A stretch of 64,000 nucleotides of DNA from an uncultured Lachnospiraceae bacterium. Its GTDB lineage: Bacteria; Bacillota; Clostridia; Lachnospirales; Lachnospiraceae. This document shows, one piece after another, positions 10,366 to 45,506 of the stretch; position 1 is the first letter of the stretch, and every line of letters begins with the position of its first letter. The notes under the pieces are model-generated. The model had not been told where the DNA came from. It saw only the letters and a program-made list of their open reading frames with translations, and searched no databases. The position numbers were made by a program, and so were the translations under genes. The stretch covers positions 1 to 64,000 of the forward strand of contig CAMWSU010000002.1 of the NCBI GenBank assembly GCA_947176965.1, read 5' to 3'.

Positions 10366-10477
10366 AAAGAATGACCGCAAGGTCATTCTTTGGTGTGAGA
10401 AAGGTTCCGCTTTGCGGAACCGTAGAAAATCTTCGCGAAGCGCCCGCTGGCGTGAGCGTTAGATTTTCTTCTCACAC
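10366..10477 (-). repeat. Structured intercistronic element C (nested hairpins)
   Basis: The gap between the tube and tail-assembly genes starts with TGTGAGAAGAAAATCT right after the TAA stop (minus strand). This pairs with AGATTTTCT's partner at 10424-10432 and CTCACAC's partner at 10393-10401. Inside are GGTTCCGC-TTT-GCGGAACC (10403-10421) and a CTTCGCGAAG palindrome (10431-10440). Outside is AAAGAATGACC-GCAA-GGTCATTCTTT (10366-10391). The nested layout is the same as element A, though the stem sequences differ. Confidence 0.75.
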
Positions 10478-10903
10478 TTATGATTCGCGCGTCATCCCCT
10501 CATGTGCGATCTCCAGCGTCTCCACCGCGACCTCGGAGGAAGTCGCGTTAAAATCCGGCGCCGTATACTTGATCGGCCACGCGTTGATGACGCGCCAGGA
10601 TGCGACCGGCTTTTCCGTAGCGTCAAGCAGCGTGATCGTGATTGTTTTACGCGTTACTTCCCCGGTCACGCCGTCGTTTAACCAGTCATAGAGTGCGCGC
10701 GAATCCGCCAGACCTTTTTTGAGCGTGATATTTCCATACTTCTTTAATCCCGGTATTTTCATGGGCGTCTGCACCATGTCGCCCTCCCGGTACTCCATCA
10801 CGTCAATGGAAGCGTCGAATCCCGTGACCTCGGAAAAACTGCACGCATCAATCCCATCGATCTCAACTTTATATCTGAATTTTCCGTATGGATAGGTTGC
10901 CAT
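10478..10903 (-). CDS. Tail tube protein (gp19-like, Afp1/Afp5 type)
   Basis: A 141-residue inner-tube protein of contractile injection systems. The N-terminus PYGKFRYKVEIDGIDACSF and the SEVTGFDASIDVMEYREG motif are typical of T4 gp19-like tubes. Later come IPGLKKYGNITLKKGLADS, a WRVINAWPIKY strand and the C-terminal VETLEIAHEG. It would polymerise into the hollow tube inside the sheath and carry cargo. It lies directly after the sheath gene (26 bp gap) with GGGGATGAGAGGAT before the ATG. The gap again contains TGTGAGAAG immediately after the sheath stop codon. High expression is expected because of stoichiometry. Confidence 0.92.
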   Translation of the reverse strand: MATYPYGKFRYKVEIDGIDACSFSEVTGFDASIDVMEYREGDMVQTPMKIPGLKKYGNITLKKGLADSRALYDWLNDGVTGEVTRKTITITLLDATEKPVASWRVINAWPIKYTAPDFNATSSEVAVETLEIAHEGMTRES

Positions 10904-10929
10904 ATCCTCTCATCCCCTTTCTTCTCACA

Positions 10930-12666
10930 CTATTGGGAATCGCCCGTTTTCTGGGAGATCCGGAAGATAACAAACTCGGCGGGCTTCACCGGCGCTACGC
11001 CGATCACACAGACCAGGCGCCCGTTATCAATGTCATCCTGACTCATGGTATCACGCCCGATATTCACGAAAAATGCCTCCTCGGGTGAGGTTCCCGCAAT
11101 GGAACCGTCCCGCCACATGCCGAGCAGGAATACCTCGATCGTGCGCTTCACACGCACCCAGAGCACCTCATCGTTCGGCTCAAATACCGCCCAATTCGTA
11201 TTTGCCCTAATGGATTCTTCAATATAAATGAACAGCCGGCGGACATTGATATATTTCCAGCTTGCATTGCTCGTCGCCGTCCGCGCGCCCCACACGCGGA
11301 TTCCCATACCCGGAAAGCTGCGGATCAGATTCACGCCCTTGGGATTTAAGATGTCCTGCTCCCCTTTGTTAAACGGGCAGTCCAATCCGACGCAGGCACG
11401 CACGACCTCGTTTGCGGGCGCTTTATGCACGCCCCTCGTGTTGTCCGTCCGCGCATAAATACCGATGACGGAACCGGAGGGCGGGATTGCAATATTTTTT
11501 TTATCCAAAGGATCAAACACCGTCAGCCACGGGTGATATAACGCCGCGTACTCCGAATCAAATATATCCCTGTGCGCGATGACATCGTCAATCTTCTTTG
11601 CATCACGCGGCAGATCGAGCACCGCGACGCGGCTCGCCGTGTTTTCGCAATGCGCAACGAGCATAAGCTGTACATTCGGATCCGTGATACCCGGCACCGC
11701 CATGATGGACACATTATCATTATCGAGAAACGCCTGAATCCCGCTGCGTTTTCCCGCGCCGTTGTCCGTTCCGATAAAATCCGCCGCCGTGAGCGACGCG
11801 ACGCTGCCGTTGCTTCCTCCGCTTAATGAAACCGAAAGCACCGCTTTTTCCTCATCCCCCTGCGCTAAAGAAAGAAACGGCGATGTGACCGCATCACCCT
11901 CCGGAATCTGACAGGAGACTGCGATCATATCGGATTTCGCCGTCTTTTTTTCAATATAATTGGGCGCATCGATATTAAAAGAAACATTCTCATACAGCTC
12001 CACCTGATCGTCCATGCGCACCTCAAGCGAGAGTTCACAGGTAGAGATGGTCCTTGCCGGAAGTAAATCCTGATCGACAACGCTCTCGTCAAACTCCGAC
12101 GCAAACTCTATGATATTGTCCTGACATTTGACGACACGGTTGTAGGTGACGGTCGTCTTGTCCGTATACATGACAATATCGCCCGCTGCAAATCCTACTC
12201 CGTTCTTGACATGATACCGTTTGCCGCCTGCTGTTTCCAAGATTTCCAGAATCTGTGTCTTTGCCTTGGATGCGGGTGCGATCACAATGTTTAGGTTATT
12301 TCCCCACACACCCGGATTTTTCGCCGTAAATGTTAAAACCGGCGTATCTGCGGGAAGATTTCCCTCCGCCGCCTTTGCGTCCTGTGGCGCAACCCTGGAA
12401 ATGTAGGCTCTCGCGCCCCCGTTGATAAAAAAGTGTTCCACTGCATAGGCAAGAAAGCGGTTCTCCCCGAATTCATTCTCCGAGAGATAACCGCCGTATT
12501 TCCTCTTAAAATCCGCAAAATTTGTGACAAGCTGCGGCACGCCCTCGATTGCTCCGCGTTCTGATAGCCCGACAAACCCCGCCGTGCTCGTTCCGACGCC
12601 CTCCATCGGTTTGCTCCCGGATTCAAATTCCTCTACGTAAACTCCCGGTGATAAGTATTCTGCCAT
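10930..12666 (-). CDS. Contractile tail sheath protein
   Basis: A 578-residue sheath subunit, normal size for a long eCIS sheath (Afp2-4 type). The start MAEYLSPGVYVEEFESGSKP and the TAGFVGLSERG segment are the classic sheath N-terminus. The C-terminal domain has NTRGVHKAPANEVV, SFPGMGIRVWGARTATSN, FIYIEESIRANTNWAVFEPN, and a final beta strand (PAEFVIFRIS) used in the sheath handshake mesh. It is the first gene of the eCIS transcript, with a strong GGGAGGAAGGT site before ATG. Upstream lies a likely activator-dependent promoter. Only one sheath gene is present here, where some systems have two to three. It contracts around the tube to drive injection. Confidence 0.95.
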   Translation of the reverse strand: MAEYLSPGVYVEEFESGSKPMEGVGTSTAGFVGLSERGAIEGVPQLVTNFADFKRKYGGYLSENEFGENRFLAYAVEHFFINGGARAYISRVAPQDAKAAEGNLPADTPVLTFTAKNPGVWGNNLNIVIAPASKAKTQILEILETAGGKRYHVKNGVGFAAGDIVMYTDKTTVTYNRVVKCQDNIIEFASEFDESVVDQDLLPARTISTCELSLEVRMDDQVELYENVSFNIDAPNYIEKKTAKSDMIAVSCQIPEGDAVTSPFLSLAQGDEEKAVLSVSLSGGSNGSVASLTAADFIGTDNGAGKRSGIQAFLDNDNVSIMAVPGITDPNVQLMLVAHCENTASRVAVLDLPRDAKKIDDVIAHRDIFDSEYAALYHPWLTVFDPLDKKNIAIPPSGSVIGIYARTDNTRGVHKAPANEVVRACVGLDCPFNKGEQDILNPKGVNLIRSFPGMGIRVWGARTATSNASWKYINVRRLFIYIEESIRANTNWAVFEPNDEVLWVRVKRTIEVFLLGMWRDGSIAGTSPEEAFFVNIGRDTMSQDDIDNGRLVCVIGVAPVKPAEFVIFRISQKTGDSQ

Positions 12667-21068: not shown

Positions 21069-23150
21069 TTATTCAAACACAAGCCCATATAGCTTCCATC
21101 CTCTGTATGAATACACTTCCTCCTCCGCCACAGGGTGCCGCTCCTTGATGCCGTAAGCAGTCTCGGCCCCGGCACAATCAAGATAGAAATAAACATACCT
21201 CCCTGACGGATGCTCCTGTATCAGGCATTCCACGGCCTCCGCATCAGGAACCATGAACACTGCAAACGGAATATTGTCACCGGATGCCGTTATTTCTCTT
21301 CTGGAAACCTTTGGGTTCCAATATTCCACATATTCGCCATACTCTCCTTCCTGAAGGATTTCCACCTCCCTGAATCCGTCAAAATAGTAAGTACATTGAT
21401 CTACAGCCGGAAACAAGACAATATCCCTTTCAAAATCCACGACCGCGAGCGCCTCCCACAGAGCTTTTTCCAACCAAAGTGTCTGCTTGTTATAAATCAT
21501 GGCGTCTCCCGGTACCGTATTCACACTACCGGTAGAGATCATGGTTCCATCCCCGATCGGAAACGTATCAAATGCGTACTTCGACACCGGATCGATCGTC
21601 CGATAGCAGGCTGTCAGCAGCAGTGCCGACAAAACCGCCGGCACCACAGGAAGAAACCGCATTCTGGTCATCTTGATATCGTCAGACAGCTCTAGCACAA
21701 ACACGTCCGCTGTCAGATACAGACACATCGGAATGATGTTGGAATATCTGGCATGATTCACTGTCACAAAAAGACAACTAAAAACGGTAAATCCCATCTG
21801 CGCCGATAACAATGGAAAAAGCCAAAAAACATTGCGGCTTTTTCCACTCAGAAAAAGCCAGAACCCATTCCGGCTAATGCCGCCTCGTGCAAACAGAAAC
21901 ACGCCCAAAAGGAGCGCCAATAGGACAAAGATCCAGTTGAAATTAAAAAGATAAAGAACCTTCAGTTTTTCTGTGACATACTTCATATCCAGCGCAAAAC
22001 CGCCGGTTCCGCCCCATCCGCCCAGTATCAGGATCGTTCCGCCCCACAAAACGGCAGCAAGCGCCATTGCATAATACTGCGGTCTGCAAAACAGCCCTTT
22101 CACCCTGTCCGCAAAACGACCGGTTCCCTTCCCACACAATTCGACCGCCACAATACCGATGCACAAAAACCCATAGATCACAATGGCAGGCTCTTTGATA
22201 AAACAGAAAAATATCCCCGAAACAACCTGCAGTATCCATTGTTTTTTGACTGTAAAATACAGTACGACCGGAAACAGACAGATACAATAAAAATCCAGAC
22301 TATAGTAATTCACCATTCCAAGCATAAACGGCGACCACGCATAGACCGCTGTGCACACCGCATAAAAAATCTCTTTTTTCTCCGGTACGACCGCCCTTAA
22401 TATCCCATAATACGCACAGATACCGGTCAGGAAAACGATCACGTTCCCAAGGATCATTCCCTCTGCCACATTCTGACCCATAACAGCCGTACAAAACCGG
22501 ATCATCGCACTGACAGTCAGGGAAATATGCCCATATAAAGCCATACTGCTGAACGAATAGACCGATGCCTGGCGGCTTGTCATATAATAACCCCAGCCGT
22601 CCCACTTAAACTGGAACATCGCAGGATCATATACTAAGAGCAGCGAGATCAGACACAGCAGAAACAGAAATTTATGAGAAACAATGTTCTTTTTCCATAA
22701 CTCCCATCCGTTTCTGACCGCCTTCTTTTCTATACGGAACAGATACCAGCACGCGGCTGTCGCCACCGCTGCCACAAGGAACTGTGAACAGACTTTATAC
22801 CGCTCCTCATACAGACCTCCCGCTCTGATTAAGAAAACGAGGTTTGATACCAGAAACAGAATACTGCATATCCATAAAACCCCGCTGCAGACAAGAATCT
22901 GTCTGCGCAGCCCGCTTTGTCCGGAAACATTCCGGCACAAACCGATATATGCCGCTCCAGCCGCAGCGCAGGCAAGCAGATGAAGCAGCATCAGAACCTC
23001 ACTTTCATGGGATGCCGCCAATGTGGAAAAGCCAAATCCAAGATAAGCGCTGCTTACGGCAGACAGCCCCAGTATGGTTCCCTGCACCTTTTTATTTTTC
23101 AGGAATTTTTTCACAAACAATGGTTCATCGGGCAGAATCCATCTGCTCAT
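21069..23150 (-). CDS. Large polytopic membrane protein, possible GT-C enzyme
   Basis: A 693-residue integral membrane protein with about 12 hydrophobic segments in the first 520 residues and a soluble C-terminal part of about 170 residues. I do not recognise a named family. The early loop FKWDGWGYYMTSRQASVYSF has an Asp followed by aromatic residues and lies where GT-C glycosyltransferases carry catalytic acidic residues, so a GT-C role is possible. It begins with an ATGA overlap on the cupin gene, so the two are translated together. A short internal duplication (SRNGFWLF and SRNVFWLF) is present near residue 430. It may be a polymerase, ligase or lipid-linked sugar transferase. Confidence 0.55.
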   Translation of the reverse strand: MSRWILPDEPLFVKKFLKNKKVQGTILGLSAVSSAYLGFGFSTLAASHESEVLMLLHLLACAAAGAAYIGLCRNVSGQSGLRRQILVCSGVLWICSILFLVSNLVFLIRAGGLYEERYKVCSQFLVAAVATAACWYLFRIEKKAVRNGWELWKKNIVSHKFLFLLCLISLLLVYDPAMFQFKWDGWGYYMTSRQASVYSFSSMALYGHISLTVSAMIRFCTAVMGQNVAEGMILGNVIVFLTGICAYYGILRAVVPEKKEIFYAVCTAVYAWSPFMLGMVNYYSLDFYCICLFPVVLYFTVKKQWILQVVSGIFFCFIKEPAIVIYGFLCIGIVAVELCGKGTGRFADRVKGLFCRPQYYAMALAAVLWGGTILILGGWGGTGGFALDMKYVTEKLKVLYLFNFNWIFVLLALLLGVFLFARGGISRNGFWLFLSGKSRNVFWLFPLLSAQMGFTVFSCLFVTVNHARYSNIIPMCLYLTADVFVLELSDDIKMTRMRFLPVVPAVLSALLLTACYRTIDPVSKYAFDTFPIGDGTMISTGSVNTVPGDAMIYNKQTLWLEKALWEALAVVDFERDIVLFPAVDQCTYYFDGFREVEILQEGEYGEYVEYWNPKVSRREITASGDNIPFAVFMVPDAEAVECLIQEHPSGRYVYFYLDCAGAETAYGIKERHPVAEEEVYSYRGWKLYGLVFE

Positions 23151-23587
23151 AAATTCTCCTCCTCGAAGACCGGCTGCTCCACCCGATATTCAAACCGCGT
23201 CTTGTCCGAATCTCCCGCATACGGTCCCTGCTTGATCTCATACATCTCCACTTCCTCAAGCACCTCAAAGCCGTGCCCGCCTGTCGAGAGCAGGATAATA
23301 TCTCCCGCATTCAATATATAGCTTTTCAGATAGCGCTGATCCTGATCAAAAAAATCCACCCGCAGCCTGCCGCTTTTGATCACTAAAACCTCCTGCGTAT
23401 AATGAACCTCCCGATGAACAACATTATGCACATGAGGTTTTATCAATTTTCCTGTCGGATGATGCATATAGGCAAGCTGCTGGGAATAATCGTCGGGCGT
23501 AAAAAAATGAATGCCATCATCCCGCTCGTCTCCCTTAATGATGATCGCCAGTGTCTCTTCCCCATTCTTAATAAAAATCGGCTGCAC
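23147..23587 (-). CDS. Cupin-domain protein
   Basis: A 146-residue single-domain cupin. Likely metal-binding positions are H-x-H-x3-H in KPHVHNVVHREVHYTQEVL and the later GGHGFEVLEEVEMYEIKQGP. Related small cupins in capsule and O-antigen loci are often sugar-related isomerases or hydroxyl-modifying proteins of the WxcM/FdtA type. The longer in-frame start at 23632 is TTG; the GTG at 23587 has GGGAGG eight bases ahead and is preferred. The gene ends by a 4-bp ATGA overlap with the polytopic membrane protein, and it follows the GT-D-like gene by 68 bp. Substrate unknown. Confidence 0.7.
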   Translation of the reverse strand: MQPIFIKNGEETLAIIIKGDERDDGIHFFTPDDYSQQLAYMHHPTGKLIKPHVHNVVHREVHYTQEVLVIKSGRLRVDFFDQDQRYLKSYILNAGDIILLSTGGHGFEVLEEVEMYEIKQGPYAGDSDKTRFEYRVEQPVFEEENL

Positions 23588-23655
23588 GCAAATTTCCTCC
23601 CGTTCGCTTTTCTGCCGTCCTTGCAAGTCCAAATCAAAGACAGCCTATACAACAC

Positions 23656-24657
23656 TTACCAATAACATCCTTCCTCAATTTCATGACTCCCTTTCGGTCT
23701 TTCTTCCTCTAACGGTCGGACCCAATAGGAATTCATGTATTGATTCATTGCTTTTCCATATCCACCGATCTCCCAGCGTTTTCCTTTTATACCGAATAAA
23801 ATCTGAGTCGCCCCTCCTAAATGAATGATGGTTTTTCCCATTCGCTTTATTTCTGCGGCCAAATTGAATCCATAGGCGCCGCATCCTATGATCGCCACAT
23901 CAAAATCCATCTTATGGCATTCCGATTTCATCCAATCAAGCGCTTCAAACCAATCCTTAAATCGATCATCCCTCTCTCCCGCGATTGTCTGGACAGCCTT
24001 TATCGTTTTTAACTCAAATTCCGGCAGGATTTCGTGCTGTTCCGGTTTATTGGAAAATAGTTTCTCTCTGTTTTCTTCATACTGCATTCTGATAGAACGC
24101 TCAAACGGATGAATAACCAATACCTTCTTTCCTTTGAGCTTCGCCGACCACGGTCCGGCTCCTTGCACACCGCACGCCGACCACGGTTTTAACCATTCAA
24201 TATGGGATATCATCGTATCCTTCTGATATACGTCATGCAGATAATCTTCCATATACAAATGCCAATACCCCTGCAGATCGATTGCAGAACAGTCATTCAG
24301 CACCATGTCAACATAGCGCTCCCCACACTCCAGATCATAAGGGAAAAAGCCGGCATTTTTGCATAGCTGCTTCAGCGCACTTTCTCTGTGGTCTATGTGC
24401 GGAATCATTCTGTGCTCAATGACCTGCCTGAGCATATTCATCTCAATAAAGCCCATCCTCCCTGCCCAAAAAGCAGCATGATCGCTGATTGCATCACCGA
24501 TGATTTTATTTGTTTCAACCGTATCCAGCACAGGCCTCCCGCAACAGATTCGTTCTTTTTTTTTCGAAAGCGGCTTTTGGGTAAATCTTGTCCTGCAATA
24601 ATTTTTCAATTCATATTTTAACCAGACAGCTTTGTTCCGCGCTGAAATATCGCTCAT
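23656..24657 (-). CDS. Unknown glycan-cluster protein, GT-D-like fold
   Basis: A 333-residue soluble protein. Residues about 40-75 carry CCGRPVLDTVETNKIIGD and FWAGRMGFIEMNML, which resemble the R-x-G-x-x-E motif of GT-D-fold glycosyltransferases. Near residue 260-300 is a conserved Rossmann-like piece DVAIIGCGAYGFNLAAEIKR followed by GKTIIHLGGATQILFGIKGK. That combination is typical of widespread but uncharacterised proteins in surface-polysaccharide loci. A longer GTG start at 24708 overlaps the upstream gene, but the ATG at 24657 has AAAGGAG six bases ahead. It is part of a tight group with the methyltransferase and FAD enzyme. The donor sugar is unknown. Confidence 0.6.
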   Translation of the reverse strand: MSDISARNKAVWLKYELKNYCRTRFTQKPLSKKKERICCGRPVLDTVETNKIIGDAISDHAAFWAGRMGFIEMNMLRQVIEHRMIPHIDHRESALKQLCKNAGFFPYDLECGERYVDMVLNDCSAIDLQGYWHLYMEDYLHDVYQKDTMISHIEWLKPWSACGVQGAGPWSAKLKGKKVLVIHPFERSIRMQYEENREKLFSNKPEQHEILPEFELKTIKAVQTIAGERDDRFKDWFEALDWMKSECHKMDFDVAIIGCGAYGFNLAAEIKRMGKTIIHLGGATQILFGIKGKRWEIGGYGKAMNQYMNSYWVRPLEEERPKGSHEIEEGCYW

Positions 24658-24704
24658 TCCTATCTCCTTTCCTGTGCATATTCTCCGGGCATATCTGATT
24701 GCAT

Positions 24705-25490
24705 TCACTCACTTTTTTTGAAAACAAAGCACTTTGAATAAACATTCCTATTATTTATCTGTTGTATTGCCGGATCAACCATACTGCTATAAGAGTCAAT
24801 CAACACATAACCCGCCGCTATAAAATATCCGACAAGCTCCTCTTCCTTAAAAATATAACGTGGATATTCTGCGTCATAGATCACTCTTTCTATTTGTTTA
24901 CAGATCCATTCCTTATCACTGACAGCCGTTCTTTCAATGATGATATACTCAAACTCTTTTTCAAACAGCGTGTCTAAAATGTTCTTGTAATCTCTGATAT
25001 ACTGCAAAACCCCTGAACAAAGCACACAGGTATTACTCGTGATCTTATCTATGGGATATGCAAAAGACAAATGCCCGTCTTCAAAATGCTCCTTCCCATA
25101 TTCGTAAAAATGCCGTTGTTCCACGACAACCCATCTTATATCTCTTGGAAGAATATCTTTATTCTGCCAATATGTACTGCCAAAAGAGCCTCCGAAATCC
25201 ACAACTTCTTTACATCCGCTTTTGGAGTCCGCCAACGCCTTATTAATATGCGCGACTAACCTGTAGTTATATGCTTTTTCATAAAACAAAAAGGTATCCC
25301 GCTCATAAACGGCCTCGCCTTTTCTCACTGCCCAGGCCGCATTAATCGCCTTTTGATATATCAGATCAGAATCATAGCCCCTGCACTCTGCTTCTGCGGC
25401 TTCCCAAGAGGAATATTCTCCTATCAGACCGGAAACGATCTCCCCTCCCCCAATAATTTTATCCTTTATCGCACGAAACAGTTTTCTCAT
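24705..25490 (-). CDS. Putative SAM methyltransferase, LIC12133 family
   Basis: A 261-residue protein of the LIC12133-type putative methyltransferase family found in O-antigen and capsule loci. Family marks are SSWEAAEAECRGYDS, an ERDTFLFYEKAYNYRL stretch, and the SAM-binding strand EVVDFGGSFGSTYW with Gly-rich loop. A C-terminal segment (IIERTAVSDKEWICKQIERV) resembles the substrate part. It likely methylates a sugar or sugar-linked group. Its ATG overlaps the FAD-enzyme stop by ATGA, so the two are coupled. Confidence 0.78.
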   Translation of the reverse strand: MRKLFRAIKDKIIGGGEIVSGLIGEYSSWEAAEAECRGYDSDLIYQKAINAAWAVRKGEAVYERDTFLFYEKAYNYRLVAHINKALADSKSGCKEVVDFGGSFGSTYWQNKDILPRDIRWVVVEQRHFYEYGKEHFEDGHLSFAYPIDKITSNTCVLCSGVLQYIRDYKNILDTLFEKEFEYIIIERTAVSDKEWICKQIERVIYDAEYPRYIFKEEELVGYFIAAGYVLIDSYSSMVDPAIQQINNRNVYSKCFVFKKSE

Positions 25491-26776
25491 GGCTGCTTTT
25501 CTCCTCCTTCAGACACGCTTACTTCACACTGCCCACCATGCACTCCACTCAACAGGCTCTGATCTGACCACAGATAATCCCATTCCCCAAATCTGCCGAT
25601 CGTGTGAATTCCCTCTTTTTTTAGATAGTTCCTAACAATATCCCGATCATTTTCCATCCCGTTATAGAAAATCACATTCCCGAACGGAAGCAGTCTGTAA
25701 TCGACGAATTCAATATCATCTTTTTGGCAGAGCTTCATTTTTCTAAGCGCATACAATGTATTTTCAATCACTTCTTCCCGATTTATTTTCTCCCAATCTC
25801 CATGGTATATCTCAAACTGCAATGAGCTATATCCGGCGGGAACATTATTCGAAGACTTTATTCCCGGACTATTGACACGTGCCGCCATGATGTCCTCATC
25901 ATAAATATACATCCACAAATGCTTTGCAATATTCAGTTTATGAAAACCGATGGACACGATGCTGACCTTTGTATATTTAAGCCGCTTTGCCGCTTCTGTT
26001 ACATTTTCCGGCACATTCCTTACTATTTCCGGCATCCGGCAAAGCGGCAGAGAACTAACCAGCTTGTCATAATGGACGTGATCACCATCGTGAAAAAAGA
26101 CTTCCTTCTTTGCTGTATCTATCCCAACTACGTCTTTATTGTATATAATGTGATCCCTTTTTATTAATGGATCTAAAAATGCCTCATATCCCCCTTCAAC
26201 AGGATATCGCATTTCATTTGCGTAATAATCGATTCCGGTATCCGATGTAAATGAACCCATCAGAATCTTATGAAAATCGGGATTTTGCAGCCTTTTCCCA
26301 ATCCATGTTGTTGATAACTCATCGGCCTCCATTCTCCAGTACTTTCTTGTATAACAATCATAAAAATCCCTCTTAAACGCTCTCCCATAAGAACCTAAAA
26401 GCCAGTCTCCGTAATTTGCAATCTCTATCCCGGTACTTCGATCCAGAAATGATTCGATATATTCACACCTTTCCTCGGGCGAAAAGCAGGAAAGATTATT
26501 GATCACCGGATGCTTTATATATTTTCCGTTGTAAAAATTGTACGCAATTGGTTCATGCCTGGTAAATTGGGTTTTATCAAACAGTTCTCGTGCTGCTTCT
26601 GATTTCGTAAAGGACAGGTGCACTGCAGAATCAAATGTAAAGCCGTTTATTGTAAAAGATTTGCACAGTCCCCCCGGACGGCTGTCTTTTTCGTATACGC
26701 GAATATTCTCACACTCTGCATAACTGTTCAAATATCCTAAACCGGCAATTCCGGCACCCAGCACAACTGTATCCAT
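25487..26776 (-). CDS. FAD-dependent amine-oxidase/UDP-galactopyranose mutase-like protein
   Basis: A 429-residue flavoprotein. The N-terminus has the dinucleotide-binding motif VVLGAGIAGLGYLNSY (GxGxxG), then RVYEKDSRPGGLCKSF and GFTFDSAVHLSF, typical of the protoporphyrinogen-oxidase/UDP-Gal mutase superfamily. The C-terminal FAD loop is visible as YRLLPFGNVIFYNG and IHTIGRFGEW. Such enzymes in surface clusters either interconvert sugar rings or oxidise lipid-linked intermediates. A longer GTG start at 26797 exists, but the ATG at 26776 has AAAGGAG nine bases ahead. It lies between the kinase/methyltransferase fusion and the LIC12133 methyltransferase. Confidence 0.75.
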   Translation of the reverse strand: MDTVVLGAGIAGLGYLNSYAECENIRVYEKDSRPGGLCKSFTINGFTFDSAVHLSFTKSEAARELFDKTQFTRHEPIAYNFYNGKYIKHPVINNLSCFSPEERCEYIESFLDRSTGIEIANYGDWLLGSYGRAFKRDFYDCYTRKYWRMEADELSTTWIGKRLQNPDFHKILMGSFTSDTGIDYYANEMRYPVEGGYEAFLDPLIKRDHIIYNKDVVGIDTAKKEVFFHDGDHVHYDKLVSSLPLCRMPEIVRNVPENVTEAAKRLKYTKVSIVSIGFHKLNIAKHLWMYIYDEDIMAARVNSPGIKSSNNVPAGYSSLQFEIYHGDWEKINREEVIENTLYALRKMKLCQKDDIEFVDYRLLPFGNVIFYNGMENDRDIVRNYLKKEGIHTIGRFGEWDYLWSDQSLLSGVHGGQCEVSVSEGGEKQP

Positions 26777-26808
26777 AAAATGATTCTCCTTTGACACCTT
26801 CAGTGCCC

Positions 26809-28245
26809 CTATAACTTACTTGCCAAAATACAAACTCTATTCGTCTCTATATTTTCCACTTTCACAATCTGAAACTTCTCCCGAAGCCCTTCAACAAACC
26901 AATCCAGCGTATACCATTCCGGAACATCAGGATTCGGATTCGCCCCCGACCATAAACCCAGGGGCATAAATTCAATGATCAAAAACCTCTTTGTATAATT
27001 TGAGAGTATCGTAACCAGCACAGATAACTTTATCTTCTGTGTCAAGATCAAATGATGGGATAATGCAAGCGCCATAACAACATCGCTTTTATACCGCTCG
27101 CAAGCCCGCCTGCCCAATTCTTTCTCCTGCAGCAGATCCATAACCGAAAACAGGATTCTTTCATTGATCCGTTGTATCTCTTTACACCTGACAAATCCTT
27201 TGCTGACTGCCGCAATATCATAATCTGTCGCACTTGCAAAATCTACTATATTTCTCTCTACCAATAACTGGGAGAGTGCCCCACTGTTTGCCCCAACCTC
27301 AAGCACATCACTTATTGCATAATCTTCTCTTAATTTTTGCATTAATTGAATATAATAACCAAACCGATCTCCTGCCGCCACCGTTGTGCCAAGTACCGCA
27401 AAGTTTTGATAGTCACTCCACACTCCCCTTTCCGACTGCAATTCTTTATGCACATACGTAACATACTTTTTGTATAACTTTCTTTTTCTCTTTTTCTTCT
27501 TCTCGTCATCAATCTGAAAAATTGTCTGCAATATAGCAGTTCCCCGGTTAATGATTTTTCTCTTTGACACTTCCTCGAAACCATATAATCTTGCTATCAC
27601 CGTCATGTATAATTGTCTGAATCTATATGCCCGGATAAACTCGCCTTTTATTAGTTTTGCACGATCTCTATCCGACACTCCCCCTCCGAAATATAACAGA
27701 TTTTGATTGATTGCGCCGCAAGTATCCCGCTTCTCATAAACCTTCAAAAGATTAATCCAATGATTGTTAAAAACACTATACCCCACCATTTTGCACTCTT
27801 CCATTCGCGCAATACTTCCAATATCCACATATACCGGTTTACATCCCATAAACATGATATTTCCAACATGCGGATCCATAAGCTCATAACCGTAATTCAG
27901 CAGATACACATTCAGTCGTGCGACCGTCGATCTGGCCGCCAACAGCATTTCATATGTCCATTCGTAAACATTAGACTTATGTTTGATCGCCTCATGTTCT
28001 ATAATGATTGCATTTTCCAATCCGACTATTTGAATCTCATCCGTTATCCAACTATTGATCAGCAGCCGTTCCCGAAATAAACTGCTCAGTATACCACTTG
28101 AAAACAACTCACGGACAAACTCCTCGCGTTCCTGCTTTACCAAACGAAAAATTCTTCCTTGATATTCAAATACATCTCCCATCAAATCCATATGATACCT
28201 TGTTATCCAGTTAATTTCACATTTCTGAATCACGATTTTATTCAT
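26809..28245 (-). CDS. Kinase-like/SAM-methyltransferase fusion (NoeA-type)
   Basis: A 478-residue two-domain protein. Residues about 15-150 look like a small protein-kinase-like domain: RIFRLVKQEREEFVREL could hold the ATP lysine, MDPHVGNIMFMG resembles a catalytic H-x-x-N loop, and KPVYVDIGSI resembles the DFG metal site. From about 300 there is a class I methyltransferase with VLEVGANSGALSQLL, SATDYDIAAVSKGF and ALALSHHLIL. This order is like NoeA-related methyltransferases and is the reverse of WbdD, which terminates O-antigen chains. It may cap glycan chains (inference). The ATG at 28245 follows the previous stop by one base and has GGGG upstream; an upstream in-frame ATG would overlap the GT2 gene. 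Confidence 0.65.
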   Translation of the reverse strand: MNKIVIQKCEINWITRYHMDLMGDVFEYQGRIFRLVKQEREEFVRELFSSGILSSLFRERLLINSWITDEIQIVGLENAIIIEHEAIKHKSNVYEWTYEMLLAARSTVARLNVYLLNYGYELMDPHVGNIMFMGCKPVYVDIGSIARMEECKMVGYSVFNNHWINLLKVYEKRDTCGAINQNLLYFGGGVSDRDRAKLIKGEFIRAYRFRQLYMTVIARLYGFEEVSKRKIINRGTAILQTIFQIDDEKKKKRKRKLYKKYVTYVHKELQSERGVWSDYQNFAVLGTTVAAGDRFGYYIQLMQKLREDYAISDVLEVGANSGALSQLLVERNIVDFASATDYDIAAVSKGFVRCKEIQRINERILFSVMDLLQEKELGRRACERYKSDVVMALALSHHLILTQKIKLSVLVTILSNYTKRFLIIEFMPLGLWSGANPNPDVPEWYTLDWFVEGLREKFQIVKVENIETNRVCILASKL

Positions 28246-28246: not shown

Positions 28247-29242
28247 TTATTTATCCCCATAGATATGTCTGATCGCATGAACAGCCTCTCTTTTTATCTT
28301 TAGCCGCATGACAATCCCATACCATTCATACTTTTTTATGCAAGCACAAATTTCTCTCTCCGCTTCCCTGATATTCCTTATCTGCTCGTTCACACTGACT
28401 TCTCTTTTCTCCAATCCATAATGCAATACATCCGTTTCATTATGCATCCATTCTTTCCATTGTTCGGACACTTGCATGAACGCTAAATAACAGCGGCTTA
28501 AAACCAATTTTTCTCTTTCTTTGGCAGTAAGCTTATGATCAGCTGTAATCAGATCAATCATATCTAAAATCTGTTTCACTCTTCTCTTCGGGAAGAAAAA
28601 TTGGTCTTTCCTCCCTATTTGCAGCTTAGACTTTACCAAACTTCTATCAATATAAGTCTCACTTGAAAAAACCCTGCAATCACAAATCGCACCTCTGGCA
28701 CGTCGAATTAACTCACACGCTATCCCGATTTCGGGGAAAATCTCATCTGTCTCAAAATAACTTTTTCTTTTTATAATATTTCGAAACGATTTTCTTTCAA
28801 AAATGATTCCTGTCGGATGATCCTGCATACAAAAAAAATAATAAGCATCATACCGACTCAGCTCACCCCTATGATCCGCTCTGTCCTTCATCAGCGCGAT
28901 CCCCTGCCGCTGCGCCCATAGCAGCTGTTCAATCAGATATGTGATACCGTTCGCCCGCAGCTTATCTCTCCCCATGACCAAATACAAATATCTGCCGTCA
29001 CCATTCTCTAACGCATTGTACCAGTTTAAGGTCGCCGCTGCCCCCTCTTGATTCACGCAGACCTTTAACCGCCTGTCTTTTATTTCCAATAATCTTAATA
29101 CGGTATCGTCTTTTGATTGACCATCCGACATAACCACTTGAAACCGTTCGTCCGGATTTTCTAACAAGTCACTTGCAATCCGATACGCCACCTCCGCGTT
29201 TTCGTATACCGGAACGCAAAAACTCACTATAAAATCGCTCAT
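28247..29242 (-). CDS. GT2-family glycosyltransferase
   Basis: A 331-residue GT-A enzyme of family 2. The N-terminal FIVSFCVPVYENAEVAYRIA and the QVVMSDGQSKDDTVLRLLEI segment form the nucleotide-binding half. GDGRYLYLVMGRDKLR stands in place of the D-x-D, as a variant M-G-R-D. The C-terminal 100 residues are helical and unrelated to the upstream family-2 genes. The ATG at 29242 has GAAGGAG nine bases ahead, and the 60-nt longer frame overlaps the next gene. It lies between the other GT2 gene and the kinase/methyltransferase fusion. Specificity unknown. Confidence 0.75.
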   Translation of the reverse strand: MSDFIVSFCVPVYENAEVAYRIASDLLENPDERFQVVMSDGQSKDDTVLRLLEIKDRRLKVCVNQEGAAATLNWYNALENGDGRYLYLVMGRDKLRANGITYLIEQLLWAQRQGIALMKDRADHRGELSRYDAYYFFCMQDHPTGIIFERKSFRNIIKRKSYFETDEIFPEIGIACELIRRARGAICDCRVFSSETYIDRSLVKSKLQIGRKDQFFFPKRRVKQILDMIDLITADHKLTAKEREKLVLSRCYLAFMQVSEQWKEWMHNETDVLHYGLEKREVSVNEQIRNIREAEREICACIKKYEWYGIVMRLKIKREAVHAIRHIYGDK

Positions 29243-29268
29243 TTCTCTATTCTCCTTCGTCAAAGAGG

Positions 29269-30129
29269 TCAGCCCCATATATGTCTGAAATGATGAACGC
29301 ATATATCATCGCATACCAAAAACACCGCATGATAAAACCATAACGCTCTCTTTGCTCCTCCCCGCCACTTATAATATGCCCAATTTCTCCATATCCTGAG
29401 CTGCCACAGAAGTACCCTGAATATGGATTTCTCCTTTAAGATGTCCCTCCTGTATAATTTCACAATACGCCGGACACCTTCATACAAATTCTTATAATTT
29501 GCAGTGATCCTTTCCTCTCCTTCTTTGATCTCGCTGACCGCTTCCCCGCAATGATACATTTTCTTCTTGTGCTTATCCAGCATCAGTACCAACGCGTCAT
29601 CCTGCCAGCTTTTCTGCTCTAAATCAAGCAATGGAACTTCCTGAAACACACTTTTTCGTACCATAATAGAATTTGTACAACACAGGGACAATTCTTCCAT
29701 TAAATATTGATGTTGATTCAGTTTCTGAATCCTGTCATACTCCGCACGTTCTCCGCCCACCATCACATCCCCATAAACCATATCCACCTCGGGGTGCTGT
29801 TCAAAAGCTTTCAATCGGGCCGTAATCCCATTCCGCAGCATCACATCGTCCGAATCCAAAAATGCAATATATTCCCCCCGCGCCGATTCAATTCCCAGAT
29901 TACGCGCGGCATTTGCCCCTTTCTTTTTGTCTTTTCTTGAAAGCAGCCGAACCCTGCTGTCCTTTGCTGCGAATCCCATTATCACGTCTTTTGTTCCATC
30001 TGTTGAAAAATCATCGCATATCAGAATTTCTACATTCGAGTATTCCTGCTCCAGCACGGATTCCAATGCTTTCACAACTGATTTTTCCCGATTATAGGTG
30101 GGAATCACGACCGAAACCAATTCATCCAT
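29269..30129 (-). CDS. GT2-family glycosyltransferase
   Basis: A 286-residue GT2 enzyme with classic motifs: VSVVIPTYNREKSVVKALES, EILICDDFSTDGTKDVI, then YIAFLDSDDVM (D-x-D), and QKSWQDDALVLML as ED acceptor site. It adds one sugar to a growing surface glycan, probably from a UDP or dTDP donor. The C-terminus is a short basic-hydrophobic tail (WRGGAKRALWFYHAVF) that may touch the membrane. The gene is tightly packed, 2 bp after the GT4 gene upstream. Confidence 0.87.
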   Translation of the reverse strand: MDELVSVVIPTYNREKSVVKALESVLEQEYSNVEILICDDFSTDGTKDVIMGFAAKDSRVRLLSRKDKKKGANAARNLGIESARGEYIAFLDSDDVMLRNGITARLKAFEQHPEVDMVYGDVMVGGERAEYDRIQKLNQHQYLMEELSLCCTNSIMVRKSVFQEVPLLDLEQKSWQDDALVLMLDKHKKKMYHCGEAVSEIKEGEERITANYKNLYEGVRRIVKLYRRDILKEKSIFRVLLWQLRIWRNWAYYKWRGGAKRALWFYHAVFLVCDDICVHHFRHIWG

Positions 30130-30131: not shown

Positions 30132-31328
30132 CTATCTTTCCTCTCTTTCGAAATATTCATGAATGATCATTTCAAACTGAACATTAAACTGCGGCTGCCC
30201 CCATTTGTCTGCCCTTTCTCTTCCTTTTTTAACAAGCTCTGCACACAGCCCGTCATCCGTCCATAACCGCTCCATACAATCCGCAATTTCTTCCACCGAA
30301 TCCGGATCAAACAAAAGCGCCGCGTCCCCGACCTGTTCCGGTATCCCGTAAATTCCGGAGGTTGCCACCGGGCAGCCCAGCACAAAGGCTTCAAGCTGCG
30401 GGATATTTGTCGGTCCTAAGCAGGTCGGCATGACCATCGCTCTCGCATGCCGGTAAAGATACACCATCTCCTCATTCGATACATAGCCAAGGATCCGAAT
30501 ATCATCCTGCATTTCTTCCTGATGAATCAGGTTCAAAACATTCTCTTTATTATTCTGCTCAGAACCAACAAAAATCAGTTTTACCGGTATTCCCTTTTTC
30601 TTTAATCCGGATGCGGCAAGGATTAAATTCTTATGATTTTTATGTGTCCAGAATTGAGCAGGATAAAAAAAGAATTTATCAAATAATGGTTCTTTGACCG
30701 GGCTTTCTTTTGCCAGATAAATATAATCCGGAGGGATAAACGGCAAAACGCTCACATGCTTGTCCAAATCTTTCCTCAGCCAGCCATAGGACTCCACAAT
30801 ATGACGCTTTCCCACCTTAGAATCCGCCAATATGATCTCTGCGGTCTCACACTGATGCCGGTACATTCTTTCCCGCCATTGATATTCGGACGTTAATTCA
30901 GGAAATCTGTCATCATAACGGTGCATCAGATCAAAGATCGGGATCATCATGGGGATATGGACCAGATCGCCCGCAAGATCCACCTGCCCTGCAATACACA
31001 AATCCAACGGGATCTTCTTCGCAATTCTGATATTACAGTCTGTATGTTGATACAAAAAAGATAGGACACTTTTGATAACAGGAACATGCCGGTATCCCCA
31101 ATAGGAGTTTTCAATCCTTTGGTTTAACCGGCCTTTCACTCCGTTCAACTTTACACTGTCCAGCTCATATTGATCTGCTATGGCAATCCACTGATCATCA
31201 CTTGACAGCACTATCACATGATATTCAGCACGATTTAGCTCAGACACAGCTTTCACAATGGACAGCCAGAACTGATAAGAACCCCCGTTATGATTTTTTC
31301 CGTCCACCCAAACGCCGATTTCTTTCAT
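30132..31328 (-). CDS. GT4-family glycosyltransferase
   Basis: A 398-residue GT-B enzyme. Conserved pieces include GSYQFWLSIVKAV, a SEYQWRERMYRHQCETAEII segment, FFYPAQFWTHKNHKNLILAA, IRILGYVSNEEMVYLYRHAR and the C-terminal GPTNIPQLEAFVLGCPVATS, with E in LEAF taking the family glutamate position. It is related to the GT4 gene at 62620, which shares the QFWTHK(N/S)H motif. It begins directly upstream of the GT2 gene, 0-2 bp gaps on both sides, so all are one translational group. Sugar unknown. Confidence 0.85.
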   Translation of the reverse strand: MKEIGVWVDGKNHNGGSYQFWLSIVKAVSELNRAEYHVIVLSSDDQWIAIADQYELDSVKLNGVKGRLNQRIENSYWGYRHVPVIKSVLSFLYQHTDCNIRIAKKIPLDLCIAGQVDLAGDLVHIPMMIPIFDLMHRYDDRFPELTSEYQWRERMYRHQCETAEIILADSKVGKRHIVESYGWLRKDLDKHVSVLPFIPPDYIYLAKESPVKEPLFDKFFFYPAQFWTHKNHKNLILAASGLKKKGIPVKLIFVGSEQNNKENVLNLIHQEEMQDDIRILGYVSNEEMVYLYRHARAMVMPTCLGPTNIPQLEAFVLGCPVATSGIYGIPEQVGDAALLFDPDSVEEIADCMERLWTDDGLCAELVKKGRERADKWGQPQFNVQFEMIIHEYFEREER

Positions 31329-33122
31329 TTATGCTTCTTTTATCCTTTCCTGCAGCACTGCTTTCCCGCCTTTTACCTCGTACACTTTATTACAGTTCTG
31401 TATCGTAGAAAGACGGTGCGCAATAATGATCAGCGTCTTTGTTCCCTTTAACGCATCAATCGACTGCATGACCGCACTTTCTGTCTCATTATCCAATGCC
31501 GATGTTGCTTCGTCAAGCACCAGTATATCCGGGTTATCATACAGCGCCCTCGCAATCGCAATCCTCTGACGCTGCCCTCCGGAAAACTTAATTCCGCCCT
31601 CGCCGACCATCGTGTCAATCCCATGCGGCAGCCCTTGTACAAAATCATAGATCTGCGCGCTCTTTAACGCACGAATGATCTTTTCTTCCTCTATTTCATC
31701 CTCGTAAATGCCGAAAGCAACATTATGTCTCACCGTATCATCAATCAAAAACACATTCTGCGGCACAAATCCAATCGTTTTCGCCCACTGCTTCGGTATG
31801 GAATAGATATCCACGCCATCCACCAAAACCTCGCCCTTCTGCGGACGGAGCAGACCCAAAATAATGTCCGCAAGCGTCGTTTTTCCCGCGCCGGACTCCC
31901 CGATCAACGCGACCGCTTCCCCTTTTCGGATGGTAAGTGAAGTATCTTCTAATACATGTTTCTCACTCTCCGGATATCTCCACCAAACATTCCGCACCGT
32001 CAGTTCGGTCTGAAATCCCTCATATCCCCTGTTCGGATGTTCTACTTTCTCTTTCTCCTTGCCGGTAAGTTCCGCCTCTCTCTCTCTCGCATGCAGAATA
32101 TTCTGATAGGCCTCTTCCAGCGACAACCGATTATATACCAATCCATTCATGTTCGTCGTAATACTGGAAATTGCAGGTAAAATTCTGACTGCAGCCACCG
32201 CAACCGCGCCAAGTACCATAACAAACTGAGCCGTAGCCTCCCCGCTTCCGAACATCGTGATCAGGCATACAAGAAGGACCAGTCCTGATATAAATACCGT
32301 CTCTATGACACGCGTGGGCAGTTTGCAGATAAACAGATACTGTGTATTAAAGCGACACGCCCTATCCGCCTCTTTGCGAAATTGATCAATAAAATACTGT
32401 TTCCTTTGACTAACGCTGATCTCTTTATAACCGTTGATCGGCTGATAAACATACTGATACCGCTTAGAAAACGCCTCCCTGCACTGGCGTCCGCATTCTG
32501 CTGTTTTTTTCTTAAACGCAAGAACCATGGTGAACGTCGTCAGCAGCGCCAAAAAGACAAGTCCGATCGCAAACAACGGATTCAAATAAACTAAAAACAC
32601 CCCCAGCAATACACAGGTCAGGGTTTCCGCAAAAAGCATTGAAAATGCGTCGATTACCTGCGCCACATTGCTAATGTCGCCGCTCACGCCGCGCATCATA
32701 TCACTGCTGTTCGTTTCAACAAAATACATATAGTCACGGTTTAAGTAGGAGTTCAACATCAACACCGATAAATCCCGCTCAATCCCATTCCGAAAACGCA
32801 GTTGAAAATAATTAACGAATAAAATCATGCCATCCTTAATAAGGTATACCAGGATCAATCCCGCACCCATCAGCAGCAGCAGCTCTTTCCCCGTTTCAAT
32901 ACCAAACCATGTCGATATTCTCTGAACGATCGAATAGGTCATTAGTTCATCCGGCGACATCAAAGCAATGATAAACGGTATCACCACACTGACACCTAAT
33001 GTCTCAAGCAGTGCACTGACGAAAAACAGCGCCAAAAGGAGAACACTCTTTTGCTGCTGCTTTCGATCTAAAATATAGGTTAGCTGCTGAAACATCCGAA
33101 TCAATGTTTTTACATTCTGCAT
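31329..33122 (-). CDS. ABC transporter, fused permease and ATPase
   Basis: A 597-residue exporter half-molecule of the MsbA/lipid-glycan type. Residues about 20-310 hold six membrane helices, and the ATPase domain follows. Walker A is GESGAGKTT near residue 405, the signature is SGGQRQRIAIARAL near 512, Walker B is ILVLDEATSALD near 535, and the H-loop is IIAHRLST near 567. It forms a homodimer in the plasma membrane and likely flips or exports a lipid-linked glycan or a modified peptide. A paralogue is at 58015. It stands 1 bp upstream of the GT4 gene and 12 bp after the GT2 gene. Confidence 0.92.
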   Translation of the reverse strand: MQNVKTLIRMFQQLTYILDRKQQQKSVLLLALFFVSALLETLGVSVVIPFIIALMSPDELMTYSIVQRISTWFGIETGKELLLLMGAGLILVYLIKDGMILFVNYFQLRFRNGIERDLSVLMLNSYLNRDYMYFVETNSSDMMRGVSGDISNVAQVIDAFSMLFAETLTCVLLGVFLVYLNPLFAIGLVFLALLTTFTMVLAFKKKTAECGRQCREAFSKRYQYVYQPINGYKEISVSQRKQYFIDQFRKEADRACRFNTQYLFICKLPTRVIETVFISGLVLLVCLITMFGSGEATAQFVMVLGAVAVAAVRILPAISSITTNMNGLVYNRLSLEEAYQNILHAREREAELTGKEKEKVEHPNRGYEGFQTELTVRNVWWRYPESEKHVLEDTSLTIRKGEAVALIGESGAGKTTLADIILGLLRPQKGEVLVDGVDIYSIPKQWAKTIGFVPQNVFLIDDTVRHNVAFGIYEDEIEEEKIIRALKSAQIYDFVQGLPHGIDTMVGEGGIKFSGGQRQRIAIARALYDNPDILVLDEATSALDNETESAVMQSIDALKGTKTLIIIAHRLSTIQNCNKVYEVKGGKAVLQERIKEA

Positions 33123-42019: not shown

Positions 42020-43855
42020 TCAAATAAGAGCAGCATTCATCCGCCTTTTCACGCTCTCATATTCCTCCTTGGGAAGGAACGGGTACATATCGTCCGGTTC
42101 CGGCGATACCATCGTCCCATCCGGCAGCGCTTTGGACGCAAGCTTCGGTTCGAAATTCTGATTCGGATCTACGACGGCCTCCACGATCAACGGTCCCTCC
42201 TGCTTCAGAATTTCGTCCAACTTCCCAATCAGCCCGTCCGCATGATCAACCCGCCTGTAAGCGATCCCGTACGCATACGCAAGTTTTTCCATGTCTGGAA
42301 AACTGATGCCGTTATCCGCACACACTCCCACAAGCGGCGGCTCAAACAAATTGCTCTGGGTCTGTCTGATGGAATGATAGCCGTTATTATTGAGAATGAC
42401 AATGATCAGGTTTAAGTGATGATGCACCACGGTCTGAAGCTCCTGCAGATTCATCTGAAAGCTTCCGTCCCCGTCAATGCAGATCACTCGTTTCCCCGCC
42501 CTGGCAAAGCACACGCCCACTGCTGCCGGAAAACCGTAACCCATGGCGGCACAGCCCGAGTTTGTGAATAATCTCTGATCATCCTTTATGACCGCCGCCT
42601 GAAAGGTCATGACGCAGGCGCTGCCATTCCCACAAATAACAGCGTCTCCCTCAGACAGCATACCCGTAAACTCTTTCAGGAACACATACGGGTTTAACAG
42701 CCTGCTCTCATAATACTGCGGCCAAACAGCAGGATACTCCCGATCGATTTCCCTGCATAGGGACAGCCATCCTGTGTGATCACCTGTGATCGGCGCCCGT
42801 GCTTCTCCAACTGCCTTTGCGAGCGCTCTCATTACCTCCTTCACATCCGCATGAATCGGCATATCTGCCTTGACGGTTGGCTTGTGCAATTCCTTTTCAT
42901 CGATATCGACGATGATCTTATAAGCGTCTTTCGCAAAATTCTGATAATTATAACTGATCAGCCGGATGTTTAAGCGCGAGCCGAGCACCAGAAGCAGATC
43001 ACAGTTCTGTACGACAAAGTTGCCGCCCCTTGTTCCCACGGTTCCCGGTCTTCCGCAGTAAAGCGGATGCCCGTCGCAAAGAAGATCATGCGCATTCCAT
43101 GCCGTCACGACCGGTATCTGCAGCGCCTCGATACATTCTATAAATTCACGATAAGCATTTCCCAGTCTGATCCCGGTTCCCGCAAAGATCACGGGTCTTT
43201 TCGACTTTCTGATCTTTTCTATGATTTTTGCGGTCATTGCCTCGTCATAAACCGGATTTTCTTCCCGGACAACGGACGCATAACCTGAATCCCCCGCATC
43301 AAATCCAACGAGCTCGTCCGTCTCCACGACCGCTCCCTGAACGTCTACGGGAATATCGAGCCACACAGGACCTTTTCTTCCGTGATTGCACAAATACCAT
43401 GCCTTTTCCAAATGATAGCGGATCTTCTCCGGCTCTGTCACCATGACGGCATACTTTGTCATCGTTTTTGCGCAATCGACGATCTGAAATTCCTGATCTC
43501 CCAACTGTCTGACCGGTGTGCCGGTATACAGGGTCGTCGTTTCTCTTTTTACCTGCCCCGACACGATAAACATGGGAATCGAGTCCTGCCATCCCCCTAA
43601 GACCCCGGTTATGGCATTTGTCCCTCCCGGACCGCTTGTGACGCAGACTCCCGCCACCCTTCCGGTATACCTTGCATACCCTTCCGCCGCGATAGCGCAG
43701 GCCTGCTCATGATGGTTATAGATGCAGGAGAGCCCATCCTGATGGCCGAACGCGTCATTTAAGTGCATCGCCCCTCCTCCGGTCACGGTAAAGATATGGG
43801 TTACTCCCTGATCTCTTAAAAACTGCGAAATGTATTTGGCTGCTTTTATTTTCAT
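42020..43855 (-). CDS. ThDP-dependent enzyme, acetolactate-synthase type
   Basis: A 611-residue thiamine-diphosphate enzyme. The catalytic Glu is E50 in IYNHHEQACAIAAEGYAR; the ThDP-binding motif is GDGSFQMNLQELQT followed by the metal-binding NN in VILNNNGYHS. A central FAD/Rossmann-like domain and a C-terminal PP domain complete the normal acetolactate-synthase layout. In surface-glycan loci such enzymes can transfer an acyl unit from a 2-keto acid to a sugar ketone (the YerE branched-sugar route), so a branched sugar is possible (inference). Its neighbour upstream is the DRE-TIM aldolase, which may supply or use the same intermediate. A paralogue is at 52510. The next base downstream is the intracluster terminator. 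Confidence 0.85.
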   Translation of the reverse strand: MKIKAAKYISQFLRDQGVTHIFTVTGGGAMHLNDAFGHQDGLSCIYNHHEQACAIAAEGYARYTGRVAGVCVTSGPGGTNAITGVLGGWQDSIPMFIVSGQVKRETTTLYTGTPVRQLGDQEFQIVDCAKTMTKYAVMVTEPEKIRYHLEKAWYLCNHGRKGPVWLDIPVDVQGAVVETDELVGFDAGDSGYASVVREENPVYDEAMTAKIIEKIRKSKRPVIFAGTGIRLGNAYREFIECIEALQIPVVTAWNAHDLLCDGHPLYCGRPGTVGTRGGNFVVQNCDLLLVLGSRLNIRLISYNYQNFAKDAYKIIVDIDEKELHKPTVKADMPIHADVKEVMRALAKAVGEARAPITGDHTGWLSLCREIDREYPAVWPQYYESRLLNPYVFLKEFTGMLSEGDAVICGNGSACVMTFQAAVIKDDQRLFTNSGCAAMGYGFPAAVGVCFARAGKRVICIDGDGSFQMNLQELQTVVHHHLNLIIVILNNNGYHSIRQTQSNLFEPPLVGVCADNGISFPDMEKLAYAYGIAYRRVDHADGLIGKLDEILKQEGPLIVEAVVDPNQNFEPKLASKALPDGTMVSPEPDDMYPFLPKEEYESVKRRMNAALI

Positions 43856-43865: not shown

Positions 43866-45506
43866 TTATATTCCTATGTTTTGCGGCAGGCGGTAGCTGG
43901 TTGTCGTAATAAAGGAAAGCTTCGCAAGATTTCTGATCCTCATAAGACTGCTCTCCACATCCGCATTCAACTCCCGTGCCTTTTTTTCATCAAAAAAGTG
44001 ATCTCTGTTCGGATTCGCGTAATCAAAGGTTTTTGAGGTGACATATCCGTCAAATCCCGCCAGTGCAATTTCTTTGATGCCAAAACTACTGAGCAGACGT
44101 ATCATCATGATCATGGGATTATCCACGATCATCGCCTGCTCGTCTAACAGTCCGCTATACCCAAGGGTATAGTCAAAAGAACCGTTTGTCTTTGTCACGT
44201 TTGTCGTCGCTATGATCTTTGTCCCATCACGCATTCCGGCAATTACCGAGGACAACTGCACATATTTCTTGGCATTACTGATAAAAAGATAATCCACCGG
44301 GTAATCCTTCGGCATGAAATTGATCGCGATCGTGACAGGGCGGTTACGACCGATATATTCATAGACGTTTTCTTTTTCATCTAAGAGGTGTCCGCCGGGT
44401 CCGAGTAAAAGAATCTGCTTCCCGGTCAGCCGCCCCTTCAGCCGTTCTTCGGCATTCTCGTCAGACAGCATAAATCTCTTTTGATATGCCACATACAGTT
44501 CTTCAATATATGCTTCATCGTACAGCAGTTTCCGTTCCTCTTTGATCATGTCCAAAATCTCATGGACGGACTTCATAGAAAGCTTCTGCTTGTCCATCAG
44601 ATAGTTCACATAGTTCGGATGGCAGTCATGCGATGCCGAAAGAAAAAACTTAAAATTGTATCCCCACGAAATCTGACGATAAATATCAAGAATTGCGCCA
44701 TCGATCGCCTCCAGCAGCTGGCTGCTGTCATAATGTTTTTCCCCATACTCATTCATATACATGGCAAGCAGCTCCGTAGGCGCATTTCCCGCGCTTTTTC
44801 CCATACCGTACAGGCTGCCGTCCACAAGAAGCATTCTTCCCTTTGGCGGATTTTCCATAAGTTCTACACAGTTTGCATAGGCAAGCTGAAAATTATTATG
44901 CGCATGATAGCCAAGCCCGATGTCCGGACGCAGCACCTGATCCGCCACCGTATAATAATGCGTCAGTCTCTTTTTGTGTAAAAGACCATACGTGTCCACA
45001 ATTGAAAAAGCATACGGATTCAGCTCATTGACCAATCCCAGTAATTCTTCAAATTCCTGATCATCATAGCTTGTTATGGATACCGACTGTACAAACACCT
45101 TATATCCCAGCTCTTTGATCTGATGGCAGAATTCGATTGCCTCATGCATCTTCTGCTTTTTGAAAATAACCCTGATCCCATCCAGACAGCAGCAGGAAGC
45201 GGGGGCAATATGATCGATCCCGCATGTGCCGTAATCAATCATCCCAACCACCATAGAAGATCCTTGGTCCAGACTGCCGTAAATTTTCTGTACGGCATCC
45301 GTATCCGGCATGATGGAGCAATCCGGATCAAATGCTCTCCGCTCATCCAAAAAGCCAACTTCGATGATATCCATCCCCGCACTGACCAAACGTTCGAATA
45401 TATTCACAATATTGCTTGCCCCAAAACGCCAATCATTCACATACCCGCCATCACGCAGGGTGCAATCCAGCAGTCTGATCACGTGTTTGTCCATATCAAT
45501 AACCAT
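43866..45506 (-). CDS. DRE-TIM aldolase with extra C-terminal domain
   Basis: A 546-residue protein. Residues about 8-290 are an HMGL/4-hydroxy-2-oxovalerate-aldolase-like barrel: VIRLLDCTLRDGGYVNDW (R-D metal motif), MDIIEVGFLDERRAFD, GLGYHAHNNFQLAYANC (H-x-H metal ligand) and LLVDGSLYGMGKSAGNAP. About 230 C-terminal residues form a Rossmann-like domain with KQILLLGPGGHLLDEKENVY and a EIALAGFDGYV segment. Together with the ThDP enzyme 10 bp downstream it forms a two-gene unit that could make or use a 2-oxo acid for sugar branching. No known pathway is assigned. A hairpin-rich gap of 118 bp separates it from the upstream membrane protein. Confidence 0.8.
   Translation of the reverse strand: MVIDMDKHVIRLLDCTLRDGGYVNDWRFGASNIVNIFERLVSAGMDIIEVGFLDERRAFDPDCSIMPDTDAVQKIYGSLDQGSSMVVGMIDYGTCGIDHIAPASCCCLDGIRVIFKKQKMHEAIEFCHQIKELGYKVFVQSVSITSYDDQEFEELLGLVNELNPYAFSIVDTYGLLHKKRLTHYYTVADQVLRPDIGLGYHAHNNFQLAYANCVELMENPPKGRMLLVDGSLYGMGKSAGNAPTELLAMYMNEYGEKHYDSSQLLEAIDGAILDIYRQISWGYNFKFFLSASHDCHPNYVNYLMDKQKLSMKSVHEILDMIKEERKLLYDEAYIEELYVAYQKRFMLSDENAEERLKGRLTGKQILLLGPGGHLLDEKENVYEYIGRNRPVTIAINFMPKDYPVDYLFISNAKKYVQLSSVIAGMRDGTKIIATTNVTKTNGSFDYTLGYSGLLDEQAMIVDNPMIMMIRLLSSFGIKEIALAGFDGYVTSKTFDYANPNRDHFFDEKKARELNADVESSLMRIRNLAKLSFITTTSYRLPQNIGI

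Follow-up and report, generated by a model that had tools for sequence, protein, structure and literature searches.

A kinase-methyltransferase of the NoeA/Lani_1194 family in a Lachnospiraceae glycan cluster is a probable glycan-modifying enzyme

NoeA of rhizobia and Lani_1194 of Legionella form a described but uncharacterised family of proteins in which a kinase domain is followed by a methyltransferase domain (PMC9758233). NoeA was reported in 1995 as a host-range nodulation protein and acts in a Nod-factor operon, Lani_1194 of Legionella anisa is counted among the putative secreted effectors, and the family comprises about 2000 members without assigned chemistry (PMC9758233). In its kinase domain, an Arg replaces Lys72, and the equivalents of Asp166, Asn171 and Asp184 are conserved (PMC9758233). 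Frequent neighbours are Lani_1193 (65%) and NoeB/Lani_1195 (38%), which are common, not strictly defining (PMC9758233). The literature searched reports no activity or substrate for any member of the NoeA/Lani_1194 family and, where NoeA is named together with WbdD, the comparison with WbdD is of a different protein.

Both activities are known from two other proteins. WbdD of E. coli O9a has the order methyltransferase, kinase and coiled coil. Its variants H132A, H133A and R203A keep phosphorylation, whereas methylation of the phosphate is abolished (PMC3482155). In Klebsiella pneumoniae O7, the N-terminal part of ORF6 forms a methyl-phosphate terminus and has separate kinase and methyltransferase domains (PMC11231755).

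The gene studied here is located at 26809..28245 on the minus strand of the window, i.e., the whole stretch of 64,000 nucleotides from an uncultured Lachnospiraceae bacterium that was analysed, and encodes 478 aa plus a stop codon. The first-pass annotation had given these coordinates without a strand. The open reading frame and the homology to NoeA identify it as a real gene, and the motifs which the first-pass annotation had read from it are present. A second possible start codon, the in-frame ATG at 28278, is located about 7 nt 3' of a good Shine-Dalgarno sequence (AGAGAGG) and would give 489 aa; hence, the true start may be at 28278. No model in Pfam or NCBIfam covers the 478-aa protein, and a single-sequence search of the PDB gave nothing useful; only a profile search matched (see below). 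Neither the phage collection nor two IMG/VR scans contained homologs. Few genomes carry the gene family: it is present in 3 of 392 in the order and in 6 of 399 in the phylum. The protein searches gave one relative in a genome of the same bacterial family (L002) and one on a Novosphingobium plasmid.

The window protein belongs to the NoeA/Lani_1194 family. It aligns with NoeA of Sinorhizobium meliloti over 430 residues with 22% identity (BLASTP, single comparison, E=3e-18), and a profile made from NoeA and four others, with the window protein left out, finds it in full length (E=4e-28, Z=1e6). A relationship to NoeA-type proteins, suggested for comparison earlier, is thus supported, and the window protein is a divergent full-length relative of rhizobial NoeA. 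Domain order and catalytic residues, including Arg for Lys, are shared with NoeA and Lani_1194. As the family has already been described (PMC9758233), the kinase-methyltransferase architecture is not new.

Within the family, the window protein stands apart from the NoeA-type members. In the tree, six rows including the window protein split as a deep sister clade from 24 NoeA-type rows (support 100/99); because the branches are long, placement inside the six-row clade is unsure. Five of the six members carry FMP(L/I)GLW near the end of the methyltransferase. Lani_1193/NoeB-like neighbours are present in most NoeA-type loci, whereas such small partners are missing next to the window gene and from all six loci of its clade (0/6). 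The Novosphingobium plasmid protein is 47% identical to S. meliloti NoeA, and its gene, like noeA, has a small gene and a gene for a sulfatase-fold protein as neighbours. Another NoeA-type gene (locus L078, 9145-10800, genome G110) contains one in-frame TAA near the kinase/methyltransferase junction.

The N-terminal domain (residues 1-172; 27730..28245; this and the following features of the gene are on the minus strand) has a kinase fold. Modelled alone with AlphaFold (AF2), it reaches a pLDDT of 84.5, and its best 50 Foldseek matches in the PDB are all kinases, with protein kinases and, at rank 17, AmiN among them. The motifs L-M-D124-P-H-V-G-N129 and V-D141-I-G-S are spaced as in kinase catalytic loops, with 5 residues from D124 to N129 and 12 from N129 to D141. 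The counterparts in PKA are D166, N171 and D184. In WbdD, D351 and N356 align with D124 and N129 of the catalytic loop (27859..27876), and D369 aligns with D141 (27823..27825), the equivalent of the DFG aspartate. R34 (28144..28146) corresponds to the kinase beta3 lysine, and an Arg at this position has been described for Lani_1194 (PMC9758233). Conservation covers both active sites: all 31 diverse homologs examined (31/31) share R34, D124, N129, D141, S144, H397 and R470. W276, Y279, N320 and G322 are also invariant wherever the domain is present, and H398 is found in 30. With this identity, and with a modelled N-domain that matches protein kinases, the kinase motifs are not due to chance, and the reading of H-V-G-N and V-D-I-G as kinase loops is borne out.

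The first-pass annotation had named the lack of a kinase fold, or of the conserved lysine and the metal residues, as evidence against its proposal. Fold and metal residues are present, whereas the lysine is replaced by the invariant Arg. In addition, no alphaC Glu partner was identified for the kinase domain. Both features (see also PMC9758233) would fit a pseudokinase which serves as an acceptor-binding or regulatory part, so that the protein would be an ordinary sugar O-methyltransferase. The generic methyltransferase fold in Foldseek and the presence of the HH pair in other methyltransferases, both described below, point in the same direction. In pseudokinases, however, the Asp or Asn that binds the metal has usually been lost, and the 31 homologs, which come from several phyla, retain D124, N129, D141 and R34 without exception. 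We therefore regard a pseudokinase as unlikely and favour an active kinase domain.

A helical linker of low model confidence (residues 173-290; 27376..27729), which contains the invariant W276 and Y279, leads to the C-terminal class I SAM methyltransferase domain (residues 291-478; 26812..27375), assigned from the model, the fold match and the profile alignment. Motif I, VLEVGANSG (residues 314-322; 27280..27306), is predicted from sequence and alignment to bind SAM. A SAM methyltransferase behind the kinase domain had been read from the letters, and model and fold match confirm it. The AlphaFold model of the whole protein has a mean pLDDT of 73.9 and is poor in the middle. In Foldseek, this full-length model matches class I methyltransferases, of which ordinary ones rank best, and WbdD is absent among the best 50 matches.

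By sequence, WbdD is the closest solved relative. When the family profile was searched against all PDB sequences, WbdD was the only significant match (E=5e-6 with 10 rows, E=3.6e-7 with 18 rows; next match E=0.004). Profile positions 284-410 align with the WbdD methyltransferase (51-167), and positions 106-149 align with WbdD 341-385, which is the kinase catalytic loop plus the DFG segment. Hence, the domains are swapped relative to WbdD, and the parallel in reverse order that had been drawn for this protein holds for both domains. On its own, the kinase stretch gives a weak match to WbdD (i-Evalue 22-68). For the methyltransferase pair, HHalign reported a probability of 97% (E=5e-11), and the crossed pairs gave practically nothing. 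The WbdD sequence used had been checked against the PDB chain.

H397 and H398 (27052..27057) align with H132/H133 at the phosphate site of WbdD, and R470 (26836..26838) aligns with R203 in the global profile alignment, less surely, as this column has low local confidence. Because the WbdD mutants at these positions lose methylation (PMC3482155), we infer a phosphate methyltransferase. The HH pair alone is not diagnostic since it also occurs in the unrelated methyltransferases NodS and RebM (PMC3482155). A pairing of WbdD Y16 with the invariant Y279 was considered and rejected, as the two residues are not matched in the alignment.

The window protein is probably a bifunctional glycan-modifying enzyme with kinase and phosphate-methyltransferase activities, where the glycan as acceptor, the phosphate as methylation site and the terminal position are inferred. 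The N-domain would use ATP to phosphorylate a sugar hydroxyl in the lipid-linked glycan made by the cluster. The C-terminal SAM domain would then methylate the phosphate group, so that the glycan carries methyl-phosphate, as a cap or as a side decoration, before it is flipped.

The gene is part of a glycan cluster, a long run of minus-strand genes which begins at 21 kb of its contig (C2) and continues to the end of the contig at 76.7 kb, with a sugar-1-phosphate transferase at this far end. Directly upstream, 1 nt from the gene or overlapping it, is a GT2 glycosyltransferase (28247..29302), followed by a second GT2 glycosyltransferase (29269..30129), a GT4 glycosyltransferase (30132..31328) and a PglK/MsbA-like ABC exporter that is not Wzm/Wzt (31329..33122). 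The GT4 protein is 35% identical to a Schwartzia GT4. Downstream are an FAD-dependent oxidoreductase (amine oxidase/PRK07208-like; 25487..26797), a TIGR04325-family methyltransferase (24705..25490), a GT-D-like glycosyltransferase (23656..24708) and a WbuC-like cupin (23147..23632), the latter two with scores below the cut-off; all genes of this list are on the minus strand. Further upstream are a second PglK-like exporter and a Wzx-like flippase (47559-48845), which is assigned by resemblance only. Also in the cluster are two acetolactate-synthase-like genes for thiamine-diphosphate enzymes (42020-43855 and 52510-54300) and an aldolase-like gene (43866-45506), all named by eye.

Relatives of the window clade are found in similar surroundings. 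In Schwartzia (L028), the homolog lies beside a cupin that is 52.5% identical to the one in the window, and the GT4 mentioned above is a neighbour. In L027, the homolog adjoins a Wzx-like flippase and is near a TIGR04325 gene; the TIGR04325-family methyltransferases of the window and of L027 (9660-10466) are 35% identical across two distant phyla. These surroundings bear on the question of whether the target is a glycan chain at all or rather a protein, a small molecule or a sugar nucleotide that serves as precursor. The listing of Lani_1194 as an effector and the place of NoeA in a Nod-factor operon (PMC9758233) speak for such a target and imply that acceptors may differ between branches. Window-clade homologs, however, lie in glycan clusters with glycosyltransferases and flippases as neighbours, which makes a different target unlikely here compared with the proposed glycan acceptor.

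A true WbdD-like chain terminator would place a methyl-phosphate on the non-reducing end and thereby stop growth and set chain length. The position of WbdD as the nearest family relative with a solved structure is in line with this role, and so are two loci of the window clade, in a Bacteroidetes MAG (L029) and in genome G1057 (L062). In both, the kinase-methyltransferase gene directly follows Wzm and a Wzt with a carbohydrate-binding domain, as expected for a cap that is read at export. The gene is present in 22 genomes, of which 10 have a Wzt_C over the cut-off, in six of them within 10 kb of the gene: the two window-clade loci directly behind Wzm-Wzt and four NoeA-type loci. Under uniform placement as the baseline, such proximity has a chance of <1% each, a figure obtained with no matched control and for polysaccharide genes, which cluster anyway. 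For relatives in Wzm-Wzt operons, chain termination is plausible.

At the window locus itself, several features differ. Unlike WbdD, the protein ends with the methyltransferase domain and has no coiled-coil ruler in its 478 aa. The cluster has no Wzm/Wzt; its flippases are Wzx- and PglK-like. Wzm/Wzt-coupled export was rejected for the window cluster since the only Wzt_C gene of the genome is on another contig (C33), where the genome's single Wzm/Wzt locus comes with a methyltransferase/kinase-like protein of its own. The earlier proposal that the gene sets chain length here is not sustained by these findings, and chain termination at this locus is possible, though doubtful. ABC-dependent export with chain-end recognition, suggested as a check, is not found at the locus, whereas Wzm-Wzt adjoins the gene in relatives.

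The C33 locus (L016, 9012-13934) encodes Wzm, Wzt with a carbohydrate-binding domain, a 731-aa methyltransferase and two GT2 proteins. Besides its methyltransferase domain, the 731-aa protein shows SDHDLIFANIL and LIDYEW, recognised by eye as kinase-like motifs, and it is a stronger candidate than the window gene for chain termination in the Wzm/Wzt pathway. It looks closer to K. pneumoniae O7 ORF6 than the window gene does. The N-terminal part of ORF6 is AmiN-like, and AmiN is also among the fold matches of the window kinase domain; in contrast to the window protein, ORF6 has the methyltransferase first and extra CBM, coiled-coil and GT2 modules. Taken as a whole, the C33 set is similar to the terminator set of K. 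pneumoniae O7.

Returning to a methyl-phosphate-forming glycan-modifying enzyme, the alignment of the methyltransferase site with WbdD and the repeated placement beside Wzm-Wzt suggest a specific, testable reaction, i.e., formation of methyl-phosphate on a glycan. A wider reading, which we put forward tentatively and hold to be less than an even bet, is that all members of the NoeA superfamily form methyl-phosphate, with WbdD-like chemistry and swapped domains. The window clade would then be a second capping lineage, which works with Wzm-Wzt or with Wzx/PglK-type flippases depending on the phylum. If true, this would account for what NoeA, still called uncharacterised in the literature, does biochemically.

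Apart from the glycan cluster, the window contains a contractile injection system-like module at 209-12666, with sheath (PF04984/PF17482), CIS tube (PF19266) and baseplate J (PF04865) matches as well as spike- and tube-like genes.
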